A DNA stretch of 28,557 nt from a virus. The notes under the pieces are model-generated. The model worked only from the letters and a program-made list of their open reading frames with translations. It did no database searches and was not told the DNA's origin. Below are positions 1,853 to 22,457 of this stretch, in pieces. Position numbers and translations under genes: made by a program. The stretch is taken from positions 1-28,557 of the IMG/VR virus record IMGVR_UViG_3300026097_001350. One strand, 5' to 3'. Numbering within the stretch: the stretch's first letter is position 1; the number at the start of each line of letters is the position of its first letter.

Positions 1853-1860
1853 GTATTTAT
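1853..1860 (-). promoter_or_regulatory. T4-like late promoter box (ATAAATAC)
   Basis: The minus strand reads CATAAATAC. By T4 spacing (box at about -13 to -6) transcription would start near 1848, giving a 12-nt leader that still contains the AGGAG ribosome-binding site of the gene starting at 1836. Confidence 0.55.
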
Positions 1861-2549
1861 GCAAGTTTAGGAAACAACATGTCGCGGCAGAAGATATCTA
1901 CATCTTGTTCCGGCAAGCCAAGGCTTTTCATGGTTCTAGGAGTATGCGGATTTTGTTGTTGATTTTCGCAATAGTAATTTTGTGCGGCTGTAATTAATGC
2001 TGTATCACCGTAACCTGTGAATTCGCCTACTTCTGCAAAATAGGCACAGAGATTATTTAACGCTATTTCAATGATGGCCACAGCTTCCTCCTCAGTGTTA
2101 ACATTGCCAGCCGCTAACATTGTATCTGTAAAAATATTCCGAGCCCATTCTGGCAGTTCACGCTGTTTCTTAGGAACAAAGTCTTCCACACTTTCTTTGT
2201 ATCCGATAATCATGGGATGTTCTACATCAAGCGTGGGTGAAAAGTCATGAAAAGCACCAGTCATTTTATTCTTGCCCGCGATAACATCAAAGCCGTATAT
2301 CGGAGCATCGTTATTGAGCACAGGAAAAACACATACATGCATCATCCAAAGCCCTTTTGATTCTCGTGCATCTACAACATCAATATGAGCACGACGCACA
2401 TTTTTGTTGCACCAAACGCGATTAATCCAACCTTTATCTGGCTGGTTGAAATCTGCAAGACCTTGCTCTTCAATTTCCTCTGCGTTTTCATCAAAAATGT
2501 TTATTATTTGATTTTGACATTCAATTAGTTGGTTCCAAATAATGCTCAA
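1857..2549 (-). CDS. pcyX: Ferredoxin-dependent bilin reductase, PcyA/PcyX type
   Basis: This 230-residue protein matches the ferredoxin-dependent bilin reductase family, which reduces biliverdin to phycobilins. The centre reads HIDVVDA (55-61), then MMHVCVFP (69-76), then APIYGFDVIAG (82-92), then TGAFHDFSP. Aligned by eye to Synechocystis PcyA, H71 falls on His88 and D88 on Asp105, the two key catalytic residues; the PcyA Glu76 position appears to be Asp57. The C-terminus, with YYCENQQQNPHTPRTM followed by a LFP motif, also fits PcyA rather than the cyanophage PebS pattern. I infer the PcyX clade of oceanic phages, which makes phycoerythrobilin; product specificity cannot be read from sequence. 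The gene overlaps heme oxygenase by 29 nt, so substrate synthesis and reduction are coupled. No ferredoxin gene is in the window; host ferredoxin would be the electron donor. Confidence 0.8.
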   Translation of the reverse strand: MSIIWNQLIECQNQIINIFDENAEEIEEQGLADFNQPDKGWINRVWCNKNVRRAHIDVVDARESKGLWMMHVCVFPVLNNDAPIYGFDVIAGKNKMTGAFHDFSPTLDVEHPMIIGYKESVEDFVPKKQRELPEWARNIFTDTMLAAGNVNTEEEAVAIIEIALNNLCAYFAEVGEFTGYGDTALITAAQNYYCENQQQNPHTPRTMKSLGLPEQDVDIFCRDMLFPKLA

Positions 2550-3087
2550 TATCTAACTCCATAAGTTCTTGGAAGAGTTTAGTTGCGCTGGAAAAAACGT
2601 ACTTAGCCTCTTCAGCTAATCCATCGTGTGTTTTAGCACGAATTTTTTCTTTCAATTCTTCAATTGGCAAATCAAAATCATACATGGTCGCTTTGCCTGG
2701 TATTTTTTTACGGATCATTTGTCCGCCGCTCAAGTCCCCCATATGTAGAACATATACATGGGCCATCAACGCTTCACTATCAGTCATGATATTTCTCATA
2801 TGCGTAATATAATCATGAGTGCTGGTGACTATGACTGGCGGAGTGTCTTTGCTCCATAATTCTAAAAAGTCATTTTCAATTTTAAGTTTTCTTTTTATTT
2901 GTGGAACGTCGTCCAATAGCCCTTGCGCAGAAGCAAGAGCTTCTAACAGATCATATTTTTTGTGTTGGTTCCAAAGATAGGTAGCATATAGTTCTGGATT
3001 AATTTTACCGCTCATTAACACTTTAACAAACTCTTGGCGTTCCGCTTCCTTATGATGCTCCCAAGTTAATTCTTTGAGATTACTCAT
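2521..3087 (-). CDS. ho1: Heme oxygenase (heme to biliverdin)
   Basis: This 188-residue protein belongs to the HO-1 family, which opens heme to biliverdin IXalpha, iron and CO using reduced ferredoxin. TWEHHKEAER near the N-terminus supplies the proximal ligand; H12 aligns with His25 of human HO-1. HVYVLHMGDLSGGQMIRKKI carries the distal helix with the GDLSGGQ flexible-glycine motif. Length is somewhat below the usual 200-240 residues, as in phage versions. The start overlaps the end of clpS by 4 nt and its 3' end overlaps the bilin reductase gene, so ClpS, heme oxygenase and bilin reductase form one translationally coupled unit. Phage ho1 is established in cyanophages; its role in a host without phycobilisomes is unclear. 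Confidence 0.92.
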   Translation of the reverse strand: MSNLKELTWEHHKEAERQEFVKVLMSGKINPELYATYLWNQHKKYDLLEALASAQGLLDDVPQIKRKLKIENDFLELWSKDTPPVIVTSTHDYITHMRNIMTDSEALMAHVYVLHMGDLSGGQMIRKKIPGKATMYDFDLPIEELKEKIRAKTHDGLAEEAKYVFSSATKLFQELMELDIEHYLEPTN

Positions 3088-3389
3088 TCTTTTTCCATCT
3101 TGATAACCAACGGAAATCCTTGGTCTCTAGTTGCAATAGTCGCTTCTGTTGTTTTTTGTTCTGCTATTTCATATGAGTAAAGACCTACCACCGCTGATCC
3201 TTCATTGTGAATTGTTAAAGTTAAGTATTCTGCGGTTTCACGCGAGTGTCTAAAGAATTTTTGTAAAATTTCAATCACCCATTCCATCGGTGTCAAATTA
3301 TCATTTAAAAACACAACCTTGTATTTTGAAGGCTCCTTTGAAACTTGCTTGATCTTCTCATCTATTTGGATGTCTACATCTGTTGTCAT
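3084..3389 (-). CDS. clpS: ClpS adaptor of the ClpAP protease
   Basis: A 101-residue ClpS homologue. Residues 20-100 follow E. coli ClpS closely: PSKYKVVFLNDNLTPMEWV, then LQKFFRHS, IHNEGSAVVGLYSYEIAEQK and a C-terminal PLVIKMEKE. The N-degron pocket is largely kept: N29-D30 (E. coli N34-D35), T33, M35 and H61 (E. coli H66), with the third acidic position changed to N31. ClpS delivers proteins with Leu, Phe, Tyr or Trp N-termini to ClpAP and inhibits degradation of SsrA-tagged proteins by ClpAP. That matters here because the phage also carries its own tmRNA. The 20-residue N-terminal extension would reach ClpA. It is the first gene of the coupled ClpS-HO-bilin reductase unit. Its own promoter is not obvious, and read-through from hsp20 is likely. 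Confidence 0.92.
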   Translation of the reverse strand: MTTDVDIQIDEKIKQVSKEPSKYKVVFLNDNLTPMEWVIEILQKFFRHSRETAEYLTLTIHNEGSAVVGLYSYEIAEQKTTEATIATRDQGFPLVIKMEKE

Positions 3390-3434
3390 ACTTTCACCTT
3401 ATAAAACGGGGGAGTAAATTCCTCCCCCTAGACT

Positions 3435-3896
3435 TTACTCGCTATCGTGTTCGATTGCTTCAGCTTCTGGCGCACTGATTGCAATCTTCTTAGGTTGTAG
3501 TTCTTCAGGAACTATTCTTTTTAGCTTGATATTCAACATGCCAAGATCAAGAGTAGCACCTTCTACTTCAACATGATCAGCAAGTGTAAACTCTCTACGG
3601 AAGTTGCGTCCGCCAATTCCTTTGTGTAGATAGTTTACTTCTTCATCTCTTTTGGGAGATGTGCCTTCAACACGCAGAGTATTTTTGTCTTTGATGATAT
3701 CCAAGTCTTCCATACTGAAGCCGGCAACAGCAAGAGAGATTACATACTCGTCTTCGTTTTCCTGGACAATATTGTATGGAGGATATCCCTGTGATTGGCT
3801 GTTTGCGAATGTTCGATCTAGTTCGTCGAACAGTCTGTCAAAGCCAACTGTTGCTCTGTGTAGTTGAGGTAGGTCTAGAGTTGATAGTCTTGTCAT
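3435..3896 (-). CDS. hsp20: Small heat-shock protein (Hsp20/IbpA type)
   Basis: This 153-residue protein is an Hsp20 family chaperone. HRATVGFDRLFDEL near the N-terminus and YPPYNIV start the alpha-crystallin domain (about 38-135). The domain shows VISLAVAGFSMEDLDI, LRVEGT, YLHKGI, RNFRREFTLADHVEV and IKLKRIVPEE. The usual C-terminal I-x-I anchor is represented by KKIAIS. It holds unfolding proteins in a refoldable state in the cytoplasm. Hsp20 is a frequent gene of T4-like marine phages. A strong late-promoter box at 3953-3961 and GGAG before the ATG suggest late expression and a role in capsid or tail folding. The ClpS gene follows after 45 nt. Confidence 0.93.
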   Translation of the reverse strand: MTRLSTLDLPQLHRATVGFDRLFDELDRTFANSQSQGYPPYNIVQENEDEYVISLAVAGFSMEDLDIIKDKNTLRVEGTSPKRDEEVNYLHKGIGGRNFRREFTLADHVEVEGATLDLGMLNIKLKRIVPEELQPKKIAISAPEAEAIEHDSE

Positions 3897-11692: not shown

Positions 11693-11733
11693 AAATTTTC
11701 CTTATTAACTGCGCACATTATTTAGCTAAAAGA

Positions 11734-11753
11734 AAAGCACCCGAAGGTGCTTT
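11734..11753 (-). terminator. Rho-independent terminator of the tmRNA gene
   Basis: AAAGCACC-TTCG-GGTGCTTT: an 8-bp stem closed by a C(UUCG)G tetraloop, then TTCTTTTAGC. It ends transcription just after the tmRNA coding piece. Confidence 0.8.
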
Positions 11754-11791
11754 CTTGGTTATTTGGTAACAAGGTAACCAACCCCGTAGCC

Positions 11792-11836
11792 TTATGCGGC
11801 TAGTGCGAACTCATCGTTTGCGTTTATATGTTTTGC
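11792..11836 (-). other. tmRNA proteolysis tag frame (AKHINANDEFALAA)
   Basis: The frame GCA AAA CAT ... GCC GCA TAA encodes AKHINANDEFALAA. I place the resume codon at GCA (11834-11836) because UAGAA just before it aligns with the E. coli UAGUC that positions the ribosome. Two upstream in-frame codons (Val-Glu) could be included if the site differs. The ALAA end is the ClpXP/ClpAP recognition end and resembles alphaproteobacterial tags rather than the APVAA ends of marine cyanobacteria. Confidence 0.85.
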
Positions 11837-11929
11837 TTCTACGACCAGGTACTCCCAATCCTACGGCTTTCACATTGCCGGTAACTCCACTCGCCTAATT
11901 GCATCGCCGTCGAGTCCAATATCTGCCCC

Positions 11930-11994
11930 ATCATAAGGATACCAGAGGAGGCGTTCCCTATGCATCGAGTACCAAGCTGATCATAGTACCCTTA
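11930..11994 (-). other. Excised intervening segment of the pre-tmRNA
   Basis: This 65-nt stretch links the CCA end of the acceptor piece to the 5' end of the coding piece. CATAAGG at its start pairs with CCTTATG at its end, continuing the acceptor helix with one mismatch near the cut sites. It would be removed during maturation. Confidence 0.75.
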
Positions 11995-12060
11995 TGGTGG
12001 AACAGCCGGGATTCGAACCCGGGTCCGTCAACCTTTCGGTCTGCTTCATCGTTACAATAC

Positions 12061-12090
12061 TATTTAACTGTCTTTGTTAGAAATTGTCAA
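12061..12090 (-). promoter_or_regulatory. Sigma70-type promoter of the tmRNA gene
   Basis: TTGACA (12085-12090) is followed after 17-18 nt by TTAAATA (12061-12067), inside the last codons of the upstream gene. Transcription would begin near 12054, just before the acceptor piece. Confidence 0.6.
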
Positions 12091-19182: not shown

Positions 19183-19631
19183 CTGTATAGGTTTTGTTTT
19201 TCTTGACGTCTTTTTCGATTTGCTTCTTTTAGGAATTTTTTCACTGCCTTATCGGATATCAAAGTTAAGGGTGACATCATATAAGACATTTCTAAATTAT
19301 TACCTGTTGCCTTAAGGAATTTTCTTCTTATATTTTTCCGTTTATGCAAAATGCTATCTTTTTCTCCGTCAACTGTGCTTCCTTTTGCGCAATTGCAACC
19401 GTTGCATAAAATTTGTAAATTGTTGATCTCTAGACCATATTCAGGAAATAGTTTAAGTGGTAATATATGATCTACCACCGCTTCGCACCATTTTTCAGAA
19501 CTAAGTTTTACCTGGCAGTTTCTGCACCGTCCAGTATTTCTAGTTTCAAGCATCAGTTTTCGCAGTTCTTTCCATTCCTTCGTAGCATAAAACTTCTTTG
19601 CGAGATAATCTAGATCATCCGTGCTGTTCAT
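19179..19631 (-). CDS. HNH endonuclease
   Basis: A 150-residue protein starting at 19631 (MNSTDDLDYLAKKFY); longer readings extend into the upstream gene and look non-coding. The HNH core is clear: GRCRNCQVKL gives the first Cys pair, VVDHILPLKL the catalytic DH, and INNLQILCNGCNCAKGS the second Cys pair and final Asn. The C-terminal part is strongly basic. It could be a homing endonuclease or a packaging-associated nicking HNH; being free-standing between a RecB-like nuclease and the tail spike favours a homing or host-DNA role, but this is undecided. It overlaps the upstream nuclease gene by 17 nt and shares its early promoter. Confidence 0.82.
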   Translation of the reverse strand: MNSTDDLDYLAKKFYATKEWKELRKLMLETRNTGRCRNCQVKLSSEKWCEAVVDHILPLKLFPEYGLEINNLQILCNGCNCAKGSTVDGEKDSILHKRKNIRRKFLKATGNNLEMSYMMSPLTLISDKAVKKFLKEANRKRRQEKQNLYS

Positions 19632-20295
19632 AATATCTGTACAACCTATCATACCATTCTTGACGCCATTCGGAATACTCATCTGGCCAAATGTCAAATT
19701 GCTGATATTCGCAATCTCTTGTACACATGAACACATGACCTTCGCAGATATTTGTGCCATAAATCTCATTGTGTGCTTCTGCGTAGGCTACTAACTGTAA
19801 GAAATAATCAAAAACCCATTCTTCTTTTTTTGGCTTATTTGATTGCTTGAAGTCCATTATCGCAGGTTGCCCTTTGTATTGTCCTACTAGATCTGTAGTG
19901 CCAGCATACATATTAGGCATATACAAAGCTATTTCAGATCCCCATATTTCGTCGACGTCTGAAAGGGCGTTTTCTTTTATTACTTCTGCCATGCTGTGTG
20001 CTTGTTGTGCATACGGATTAGAACCAGGTTGAGGCCATTCTGCAGTTTCTATGTATTTTTCAAGGTAAGAATGCATCCTAGTTCCAACACCGGCTGCTTC
20101 TGTGACAATCTCTTGTGCTTTTTTCTCACCAACCCTTTTCTTCCATGCGATTAAATGAGTCTTATCTTTTGTTGCATCTAGAATTGTAGTGACAGATGCA
20201 ACAGCTCGTCCGTCAGGTGTTTCATACAGTCTCTTTCCGTTTATTTGTTTTCTTGAAATGGGCCTGTAATCAAACTTATTGTTTATTAGCGTCAT
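19615..20295 (-). CDS. PD-(D/E)XK exonuclease (RecB/Cas4-like)
   Basis: A 226-residue protein. GVGTRMHSYLE (about 70-80) is the GxxxH motif, SEIALYMPNMYAGTTDLVGQ supplies the Glu and the catalytic Asp, AIMDFKQSNKPK the D-x-K motif (a variant of ExK), and YFLQLVAYAEA the QxxxY motif. This is the RecB-nuclease/lambda-exonuclease-like set, without helicase. It probably resects DNA ends in recombination-dependent replication or degrades host DNA. Similar exonucleases are usual in T4-like cyanophages. It has a host-type promoter (20316-20344) and AGGAG before the ATG, consistent with early expression. Confidence 0.85.
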   Translation of the reverse strand: MTLINNKFDYRPISRKQINGKRLYETPDGRAVASVTTILDATKDKTHLIAWKKRVGEKKAQEIVTEAAGVGTRMHSYLEKYIETAEWPQPGSNPYAQQAHSMAEVIKENALSDVDEIWGSEIALYMPNMYAGTTDLVGQYKGQPAIMDFKQSNKPKKEEWVFDYFLQLVAYAEAHNEIYGTNICEGHVFMCTRDCEYQQFDIWPDEYSEWRQEWYDRLYRYYEQHG

Positions 20296-20345: not shown

Positions 20346-20726
20346 TTATAATTCAGCACCTACATCTGTGGCTCTTTTTGCCATCTGTGATACTGTTTTG
20401 TCATCTTCACCGCTTTGTGGAGAATCATCAATTTGATTTTTGGTATTAACTTCTATTCCATCCTTGGAAAAATTTTTAACCATTGTTTTTATTCTAGGAT
20501 CTGTCTCGAATGCCGCAACAAATGTGCCATAATCAAAAAACTCGCCGTCAACATTCTGCATAAGTTTGTTCAAATCAAGATTTAATGAATCTGGTTTGGT
20601 ATTTTCTTTGGATGGTTTATCGAAATGTAGAAAGGCACTTTTATTTTTCCTGTCAGCACCTGCAATAACAGTACGAAGAACCTGCACTAATTTAGGCGCG
20701 GTGCTTTGTTCTTCATCTTCTGTTAC
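20346..20726 (-). CDS. C-terminal -1 frame extension of the virion-type protein
   Basis: From GTA at 20726 the -1 frame is open for 126 codons to a stop at 20346. It reads VTEDEEQSTAPKLVQVLRTV, IAGADRKNKSAFLHFDKPSK and further coding-like sequence to the end. The only possible own start is a GTG at 20687, which has no Shine-Dalgarno. The frame runs back without a stop exactly to the A9 run that ends the upstream gene. I therefore read it as the second part of a frameshifted product of about 405 residues with the 279-residue protein. A separate 113-residue protein from GTG, or a missing A in the assembly, are the alternatives. Confidence 0.65.
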   Translation of the reverse strand, partial: VTEDEEQSTAPKLVQVLRTVIAGADRKNKSAFLHFDKPSKENTKPDSLNLDLNKLMQNVDGEFFDYGTFVAAFETDPRIKTMVKNFSKDGIEVNTKNQIDDSPQSGEDDKTVSQMAKRATDVGAEL

Positions 20727-21562
20727 TTTTTTTTTGAAAGAATTCCTGCTAATCTACGAGATGATTCTATCATACTTTTTCTAGATTCAAACGATTCTCT
20801 CTGCGCTCGACCTGCTTCTTCTTCGCCACCTACTGCTGGTTCAGCGGCTGAAAATTCATCATCATCTACTGTGGGCTCCATTTCTTCGCCACCTGCTGGC
20901 AGTTCCTCTTCAGTATCGGCGCCCATTTCTTCTGGTGGTGCACTTTCACCAGTTAAAAGTCCTACCCCACCAGTTAGTGCCTCTCGAGTAGATTCCATTG
21001 AAGTATACATTGCTTCAAGCGCAGGCTTCACAGCATTTGTAAATGCGTCGGCTTGTTCAACACCTAGTTCATCTCTGATAGCATCTGACAATTCAAGCAT
21101 GCTTTCGGTTTGCATTTCTGCAGTATCTTCCATCCAACCTGTAACACGATCCACCATATCTTTGGCGGCCATAACAAGCTCTGCTGTATCTTCAGCACCT
21201 TCTTTGACTGTTTTCTTTTTCTTGTCTTTGGCGGCTTTTTTCATTGGCTCTTTTTTGTCACCGTCCTTGTCAAGGTCCAAAAAGTCTGGTTTAGCTTCTT
21301 TTTCTTCTATAGCATCGCGTTCAGAAATTTCTGCATTTAGAACATCAAGGAAGAGTTTGTTTTTCTGGTAATCTTCTTGGCGGACCGTGTCATAGCTTTC
21401 GTTAGTTTCAATCTGACTGATCTTTGTGCGTAATTTATTTCTTGCATCTTGAAGCTGCTCAGATGTAAAATCTTCAAGTCGGATTCTTGTACCGAATCTT
21501 TTTGCAAGGCTTTCGTTCAATGCCTTTGCTGTCACAGGACGCGATATATCTCTAATGTTCAT
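20723..21562 (-). CDS. Virion-associated protein, T4-like marine phage type
   Basis: The zero frame gives 279 residues. MNIRDISRPVTAKALNESLA with KRFGTRIRLEDFTSEQLQDA at the start, and FLDLDKDGDKKEPMKKAAKD near residues 93-112, recall structural proteins of T4-like cyanophages. DLDKDGDKKE resembles a single calcium-binding loop. The rest is helical and Glu/Ala-rich, with a low-complexity acidic stretch near 215-255. ALNE|S at 15-18 would also be a prohead-protease-like site. The 3' end is a dnaX-type slippery site followed at once by TAA; a -1 slip would add 126 residues. A plus-strand open frame covering 20706-21371 is a low-complexity shadow. Confidence 0.75.
   Translation of the reverse strand: MNIRDISRPVTAKALNESLAKRFGTRIRLEDFTSEQLQDARNKLRTKISQIETNESYDTVRQEDYQKNKLFLDVLNAEISERDAIEEKEAKPDFLDLDKDGDKKEPMKKAAKDKKKKTVKEGAEDTAELVMAAKDMVDRVTGWMEDTAEMQTESMLELSDAIRDELGVEQADAFTNAVKPALEAMYTSMESTREALTGGVGLLTGESAPPEEMGADTEEELPAGGEEMEPTVDDDEFSAAEPAVGGEEEAGRAQRESFESRKSMIESSRRLAGILSKKK
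20727..20735 (-). promoter_or_regulatory. Candidate programmed -1 frameshift site (A AAA AAG, dnaX type)
   Basis: The zero frame is TCA AAA AAA AAG TAA. It contains A AAA AAG, the heptamer used by E. coli dnaX, directly before the stop. AGGA lies about 10 nt upstream of the heptamer, the spacing of the dnaX stimulatory Shine-Dalgarno. No downstream stem-loop was evident. Confidence 0.6.
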
Positions 21563-21608: not shown

Positions 21609-22022
21609 TCAAAATATAAATCTATCAAGTTTATGTTTAGCCTCTTGAGTTTTCCTATGAGCTATTTCATAACGAATGCAGATAATATCTCTATCGTTTT
21701 GATCTTGTTTTTCCCGCATGGCATTTTTATAAAAAACACAATCAATATAATTTTTTTCTATAATTCTATCTAATTCTTTTATCCTACGACTAACATCTCT
21801 TCCTGAAGATAATGTTTTAGCTAATGCAACAGCCGATGTTTTACAAAATAAAATTGCAATCTGTTTTTTAGTTTTGACATTGTACACTGTAAAATCATTT
21901 TTCCTTTCTTGCACTAGCACATCGCCAACACGGATACAGTTGCCTTTTTGATAAGGCAAGATGGTATTGTCGATTTTATCGATGAGATCCTTCAGATCTT
22001 GTATGATATTCTTATCAGCCAT
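21609..22022 (-). CDS. Hypothetical protein
   Basis: A 137-residue, Lys/Asp/Ile-rich, AT-rich protein: NIIQDLKDLIDKIDNTILPY, then GNCIRVGDVLVQERKNDFTV, then a helical C-terminal half (DVSRRIKELDRIIEKNYIDC). The middle looks like a small beta barrel and the end like a coiled coil. I recall similar proteins in pelagi- and cyanomyophages beside the internal-protein block but no function. It overlaps the upstream 66-residue gene by 8 nt. It has no capsid-targeting-like N-terminus. Confidence 0.65.
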   Translation of the reverse strand: MADKNIIQDLKDLIDKIDNTILPYQKGNCIRVGDVLVQERKNDFTVYNVKTKKQIAILFCKTSAVALAKTLSSGRDVSRRIKELDRIIEKNYIDCVFYKNAMREKQDQNDRDIICIRYEIAHRKTQEAKHKLDRFIF

Positions 22023-22215
22023 TCCGTACGATCAAAGTCAAATTGTTTTGATTAATTTTACTTACCAAACTTTTTCTAATTAGACTTTCGATCAGGGTTC
22101 GTTCTCTTTCCGTGAAACTGGTTATAGGAGTGGGTTTGTCAAGACTGCCGTACAGCTCTTGTTCTTCATTGCTCATAAAAATTGTAAATTCTTGTATGAG
22201 CTCATTTATCTTCAT
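22015..22215 (-). CDS. Small protein with capsid-targeting-like N-terminus
   Basis: A 66-residue protein beginning MKINELIQE|FTIFMS. MKINELIQE resembles the T4 internal-protein targeting peptide (MKTYQEFIAE), and L-I-Q-E|F fits an (I/L)-x-E prohead-protease site. The rest is TERERTLIESLIRKSLVSKI, helical and charged. No other domain. It overlaps neighbours on both sides by 4-8 nt. If processed in the head, a mature protein of about 57 residues would remain. Packaging is inference from the N-terminus and the row of similar genes. Confidence 0.6.
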   Translation of the reverse strand: MKINELIQEFTIFMSNEEQELYGSLDKPTPITSFTERERTLIESLIRKSLVSKINQNNLTLIVRNG

Positions 22216-22457
22216 TTTACAGCGACCTTGTCACCTGGCTTTATACTTTTATCCACTGTGCCGTTTGTTTTTGTTGACATAGTAAGTTTGCCTTGATCAT
22301 CTTTTTGAATAAACCCAGGCTTGTTAGGATCTTTAGGTACGACAGTTTTTACTTTGGTTTTGGGATCGATTAAAACTGTTTCTTTATCGTTATCATCCAT
22401 CACATCAAGCATTTGACCAGGAGCCATCTGTTCGTTGACAATTTCATAAATTTTCAT
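22212..22457 (-). CDS. Small protein with capsid-targeting-like N-terminus
   Basis: An 81-residue protein beginning MKIYEIVNE|QMAPGQ, again M-K-I-x-E-I followed by I-V-N-E, an (I/L)-x-E site. The remainder is Lys/Asp/Thr-rich with short strands (ETVLIDPKTKVKTVVPKDPN) and ends KSIKPGDKVAVK, a composition expected of a small beta protein. No family recognised. It overlaps the next gene start by 4 nt. Confidence 0.6.
   Translation of the reverse strand: MKIYEIVNEQMAPGQMLDVMDDNDKETVLIDPKTKVKTVVPKDPNKPGFIQKDDQGKLTMSTKTNGTVDKSIKPGDKVAVK

Follow-up and report, generated by a model that had tools for sequence, protein, structure and literature searches.

A predicted programmed −1 frameshift site joins a conserved C-terminal domain to a virion-type protein in a group of marine giant phages

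In a 28.6-kb stretch of viral DNA (28,557 nucleotides; the whole of this stretch is referred to here as the window), a gene for a 279-aa virion-type protein (the N-part) ends in a run of adenines that is, in all likelihood, a programmed −1 frameshift site. One mRNA would be read as the 279-aa protein, of virion or prohead type, and a fraction of these readings would shift −1 on A AAA AAG, adding a conserved C-terminal domain (the C-domain) to give a 405-aa protein. Taken as a whole, the best explanation, to which we give a probability of about 0.8, is a programmed −1 frameshift that is mainly ribosomal and by which the C-domain would be carried into the prohead. A −1 frameshift is a known kind of event, and this site is widespread in a large group of marine giant phages; no earlier description of it was found in the literature searched, which covered few subscription papers. 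Members of the group are probably annotated as having one short gene with a missing neighbor.

The junction in the window and its conservation

On the minus strand of the window, the 279-codon frame starts with ATG at 21562 and ends TCA AAA AAA AAG TAA (Table 1). An earlier reading of the same DNA from its letters (hereafter the sequence-only reading) had described this gene end, followed by a −1 frame open for 126 codons; both were confirmed in the sequence, and the stop of the −1 frame was placed at 20346-20348. The earlier prediction of a 279/405-residue pair of products was also reached here (279 + 126 = 405 aa, with the junction SKKKVTEDEE), and its choice of A AAA AAG as the −1 site is borne out by a heptamer that is in phase, directly followed by TAA, and conserved in relatives. 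The −1 frame of the window has no ATG near the junction; its first start-type codons lie 38 nt (GTG), 152 nt (TTG), and 164 nt (ATG) past the 0-frame stop.

Table 1. Features of the frameshift locus in the window
Feature	Position	Strand	Basis
0-frame gene, 279 aa	20723..21562	-	ORF; phrog_14154 match; kept in >50 relatives; AF2
Slippery run, A9 (20727-20735) and G (20726), with in-phase A AAA AAG at 20726-20732	20726..20735	-	Sequence; conserved in relatives
0-frame stop TAA, abutting the heptamer	20723..20725	-	Sequence
Predicted −1 extension of 126 aa that begins at V280 of the fusion; C-domain, predicted to be winged-helix-like	20346..20726	-	ORF, family alignment, model
V-T-E, i.e. [hydrophobic]-x-E straight after the slip; candidate prohead-protease site	20718..20726	-	52/53 non-redundant junctions
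Predicted stem-loop directly 3' of the heptamer; inner 9-bp stem pairs 20708-20716 with 20673-20681	20666..20725	-	-18.6 kcal/mol, z about -3.6
AGGA, Shine-Dalgarno-like; doubtful stimulator	20744..20747	-	Not conserved in relatives
N-terminal leader MNIRDISRPVTAKALNE; candidate capsid-targeting/processing sequence	21512..21562	-	L15-N16-E17 nearly invariant; inference from T4 CTS (PMC9026906)
Exonuclease gene, downstream	19615..20295	-	Same neighbor in RaK2, Vibrio 2.275.O, Salicola SCTP-2

The window contains T4-type and giant-phage genes, among them nrdA, nrdB, the exonuclease gene, a tail-spike-like gene, and genes for virion-type proteins. Several other features of its minus strand were observed: a predicted permuted, phage-borne tmRNA gene with the tag ANDEFALAA (11701-12087; ARAGORN, and Rfam tmRNA_permuted at 85.7 bits); overlapping genes for heme oxygenase (PF01126) and a ferredoxin-dependent bilin reductase (PF05996), a pigment pathway pair (1857-3087), no gene for photosynthesis having been noticed in the window; and, by sequence look only, adjacent ClpS-like and Hsp20-like genes (3084-3896).

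A scan of IMG/VR proteins yielded 554 confirmed relatives, the best 80 of which were kept for reading of the junction. Among these best 80 of 554, nearly every first frame closed with A8-A10 and was followed by an open −1 frame of 97-129 codons, a layout that was also kept in relatives whose proteins were 50-60% identical. The −1 extension exceeded 90 codons at 63 distinct junctions, and an in-phase slippery heptamer was found inside the frame overlap in 61 of them; in the other two, which lack the heptamer, the C-domain starts at its own ATG. A9G was used by about 60 of 70 junctions, and outside the junction AAAAAAAAG accounted for only 4 of the 61 KKK triplets in the same genes.

After further scans, a tree was built from 95 related loci from independent metagenomes. 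The frameshift layout, defined by an in-phase A AAA AAG (or A AAA AAA/C), a −1 extension of 97-129 codons, and no junction ATG, was present in 75 loci, and in 20 the C-domain was a separate gene with its own ATG. The two layouts were mutually exclusive, and a single fused frame was never met in the classified loci. The frameshift form was spread over the whole tree; the separate form represented two independent switches, both nested among A9G loci and both accompanied by loss of the A-run, so that the run appears to vanish once it is no longer needed. The sequence-only reading had proposed that homologues be compared for conserved A-runs at the junction and had named separate genes with proper starts as evidence against it. 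Conserved runs were found across a deep phage clade; separate genes occur in the 20 loci, but a slippery run before the stop was present in none of these, which strengthens the case for a frameshift.

These data bear directly on the possibility that A9 is a sequencing error for A10, homopolymer runs being prone to errors, or that the gene has decayed. The same layout recurs in tens of contigs that are diverged and come from different metagenomes, including contigs of 357 kb and 335 kb, and the −1 extensions evolve as protein, aligning as one family in which an M and two A residues close to the end are invariant (a family whose profile alignment, A1, was too diverse for contig scanning). We regard error or decay as having next to no chance, conservation having ruled out sequencing error, and error together with chance is excluded as the cause. 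The 335-kb contig (L155; PBPT01000016.1), which has the locus and its frameshift, is binned as a Neomarinimicrobiota bacterium and looks like a giant phage genome inside a bacterial bin.

The C-domain could alternatively be translated alone through termination-reinitiation. In four loci (L043, L084, L115, and L118) the stop is a TGA within GTGA that is followed by a leader-like VKISEV, as reinitiation would have it; in the window and most relatives, however, the overlapping codon is GTA, which is not a start, no ATG is nearby, and the A-run is gone from all 20 loci that do have a proper ATG. Reinitiation is considered very improbable. The four loci themselves, with leader-like VKISEV/VRIAEI after GTGA, look as if they stood between the frameshift and a separate start.

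Ribosomal versus transcriptional slippage

The frameshift is probably mainly ribosomal and of the dnaX type. In E. coli, A_AAA_AAG ranks within the top three heptamers for shifting, a property attributed to Lys-tRNA on AAG (PMC4066793). Alternatively, RNA polymerase would add an A on A9, and the part of the mRNA carrying A10 would be read straight through. Nine adenines is the classical length for bacterial transcriptional slippage, as in Thermus dnaX (PMC1088944), and A9 is retained in most junctions even though A6G would be enough for a ribosome. Nevertheless, the run is not about nine in all homologues but varies from A6 to A10: A9G is found in most, A8G, A10T, and A9C occur elsewhere, and one clade has only A6G (GGA AAA AAG TCG TAA), too short for usual transcriptional slippage. 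Moreover, in two loci (L048 and L053) A9G lies in a different reading phase and is accompanied by extra downstream structure, a feature that affects ribosomes but has no evident bearing on polymerase; these two loci matter most, since phase is irrelevant to RNA polymerase. Although transcriptional slippage on A9 may contribute, and the two kinds of slippage are not fully separable by sequence, we consider it unlikely to be the principal mechanism. The series from A6G to A10T, together with the phase-shifted A9G loci, provides natural variants for telling ribosomal from transcriptional slippage.

Downstream structure was compared in 52 non-redundant loci. As a group, the 8 loci with non-canonical sites (mean z -3.7) had much stronger structure than the 44 with canonical sites (mean z -0.7; Mann-Whitney p 5e-5), and a control region 60-120 nt downstream gave p 0.5 for the same comparison. 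Strong structure was found at L048, L053, and most A10T, A9C, A8G, and A6G loci, and structure was weak at most A9G sites. Because this association was noticed post hoc, and because only a sign test p of 0.125 was obtained when the tree was considered (4 concordant and 0 discordant independent pairs), compensation of non-canonical sites by extra structure is suggestive only. Downstream structure was discarded as a general, conserved mark of the frameshift form, since separate-gene relatives have it with similar scores. In the window itself, a stem-loop absent from the sequence-only account is predicted downstream of the junction, and it would help the ribosomal slip in this phage. The AGGA that the sequence-only reading had pointed to is indeed present, 11 nt upstream of A AAA AAG, but it is not a conserved element: AGGA precedes 41% of junctions and 50% of control stretches, and an upstream Shine-Dalgarno stimulator, neither conserved nor enriched in relatives, was rejected. 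Such a stimulator, like a downstream structure, is optional at dnaX/IS-type sites, and its lack does not speak against a −1 site of this type.

The two protein parts and a possible route into the head

The N-part consists of a leader (consensus MNIREISKPVTAKALNE, with L15-N16-E17 almost invariant), a helical core with an invariant WMEDTAEM region, a disordered acidic tail, and the SKKK end; its AF2 model is all-helical. No Pfam family was found for it, and its VIA-align matches were set aside as generic helical hairpins. The window protein matched phrog_14154, a virion structural protein, at 3e-9, and 48 of 53 members of the N-part family matched the same group (best 6e-17). The earlier description of the product as virion-type is supported by this similarity to gp044 of Atu_ph07 (phrog_14154), whose annotation is virion structural protein and whose gene lies within a cluster of virion proteins. 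That cluster (CDS 31-76 of Atu_ph07) was defined by mass spectrometry (PMC6102473).

For the C-domain, the AF2 model had a pLDDT of about 90 for residues 10-95 and a topology fitting the winged-helix order H-B-H-H-B-B. Weak structural matches included many winged-helix chains (Z 3-5), which makes a winged helix a lead for this predicted fold rather than an assignment. Foldseek found nothing in the PDB below E 0.001, Pfam had no family for the domain, and no sequence-level relative in the PDB was convincing.

When the two frames of the window were compared with cultured phages by tblastn, no match was obtained, and a consensus core was required; profile searches then detected an N-part in five giant phages in culture. 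Three of them, RaK2, Vibrio phage 2.275.O, and Salicola phage SCTP-2, have genes for the N-part, a protein of 116-122 aa, and the exonuclease in the same order as the window. Similarity of the small protein to the extension profile was weak (best E 1e-5 against 13 sequences); in RaK2 (ORF136) and the Vibrio phage (026) it shares a VxxMA end with the extension. From gene order and these profile matches we conclude that the C-domain is a separate gene in these three phages. In Atu_ph07 (gp043) and Phosso (459), the gene in the same place beside the N-part hardly matches the profile, and its identity with the C-domain is probable only. The comparison ruled out that the extension is contained in frame within gp044 of Atu_ph07 or the Phosso homologue of gp044.

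The small proteins of all five cultured phages begin with a short leader (e.g., MRYKDLCEG, MRINDLFEK, or MRLSEIINES), as do the products of separate C-domain genes in the marine group (MKISDIINEG, MKVSEILKEQ, or MKIFELYEAG). By their sequences, these leaders resemble the capsid-targeting sequences (CTS) of T4. In T4, targeting resides in the N-terminal half of the CTS and processing at residues 8 and 10, and the prohead protease gp21 cuts after L/I-x-E (PMC9026906). The leader pattern of separate C-domain proteins was also seen in two small neighboring genes of the window (22015-22457, minus strand), whose products start MKINELIQEF and MKIYEIVNEQ; the order of this gene pair is conserved in the 357-kb relative (L154).

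Of the C-domain leader, the fused form retains just the last three residues, [hydrophobic]-x-E. Of 53 non-redundant junctions, 52 carry [VILMF]-x-E no more than 13 residues from the slip, compared with 4.4% of control stretches. The hydrophobic residue is often forced, since a 0-frame TAA, TAG, or TGA is overlapped by an NTA or NTG codon in the −1 frame, and only the E is free; when sequences were shuffled with the hydrophobic residue held fixed, a mean of 21.9 and a maximum of 32 of the 53 junctions had the motif. V is the commonest hydrophobic residue at the junction (P3), where the T4 consensus has L/I. Genes for Gp23 and Peptidase_S77 are present in the 357-kb relative with the same locus, and a protease gene is absent from the window itself.

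From the junction motif, the leaders, the parallels with T4 gp21 and CTS, and the Gp23 and S77 genes of the 357-kb relative, we infer a possible route into the head. The C-domain, elsewhere a separate leader-bearing gene, would here have lost the targeting half of its leader and kept the cleavage-like end [VIL]-x-E, a step that has moderate support. The 279-aa part would then bring the C-domain along into the prohead in a low, fixed proportion, and a T4-type prohead protease might free it there. Delivery and cleavage taken jointly remain a tentative proposal. A serious rival, which we hold to be just as plausible, is that the 405-aa protein stays uncut and serves as a stable minor component of the virion, extended at its C-terminus as T7 gp10B and the phage A2 capsid are. 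Such use of frameshifts is known in phage coat genes (PMC5009743), and the occurrence of both fused and separate forms is in keeping with it; against it stand the near-invariant E after the junction within an otherwise variable linker, and the leaders of the separate forms, which end in the same motif. Either way, frameshift fusion versus a separate leader-bearing gene constitutes a natural experiment on the loading of passengers into phage heads.

Comparison with known systems

The −1 sites of E. coli dnaX and the IS3 family share with the window the in-phase A AAA AAG, a stop just after it, and a downstream stem-loop, which is a predicted one in the window. The dnaX slip shortens its protein, however, whereas that of the window would add a domain, and the present family differs from dnaX and IS3 sites in lacking a conserved upstream Shine-Dalgarno sequence and in keeping a long A9. 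Thermus thermophilus dnaX, where transcriptional slippage occurs on A9, is resembled by the present family in that most homologues conserve an A9 run; the A6 to A10 variants and the phase-dependent extra structure seen here point instead to the ribosome.

As in the capsid genes of T7/T3 (gene 10), Lactobacillus A2, and Listeria PSA, a minor, C-terminally extended virion-type protein would be made from one gene. Unlike those genes, that of the window does not encode the major capsid protein, and its C-domain is a separate gene in relatives; moreover, the T3/A2 extension is Ig-like and that of the window is not. The lambda G/G-T chaperones are likewise made in short and long forms by a −1 frameshift, but their site lies between tail tube and tape measure genes, and that of the window lies beside an exonuclease gene and genes for small proteins, a location by which a tail assembly chaperone of the G/GT type was rejected.

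Atu_ph07 gp044 and RaK2 ORF135/ORF136 have the homologous N-part core and an adjoining C-domain gene (only probably so in Atu_ph07), with the exonuclease next in RaK2; unlike in the window, the genes there are separate and have no slippery run. Finally, in retroviral Gag-Pol, too, frameshifting attaches a passenger to a protein targeted to the particle, and a protease-like site follows the junction. The analogy is one of logic only, the site here being a candidate cleavage motif. Such logic may operate in this group of tailed DNA phages, where a frameshift would fuse a leader-less passenger to a prohead protein, a protease would free the passenger at [VIL]-x-E, and frameshift and separate leader-bearing gene would be interchangeable in evolution.
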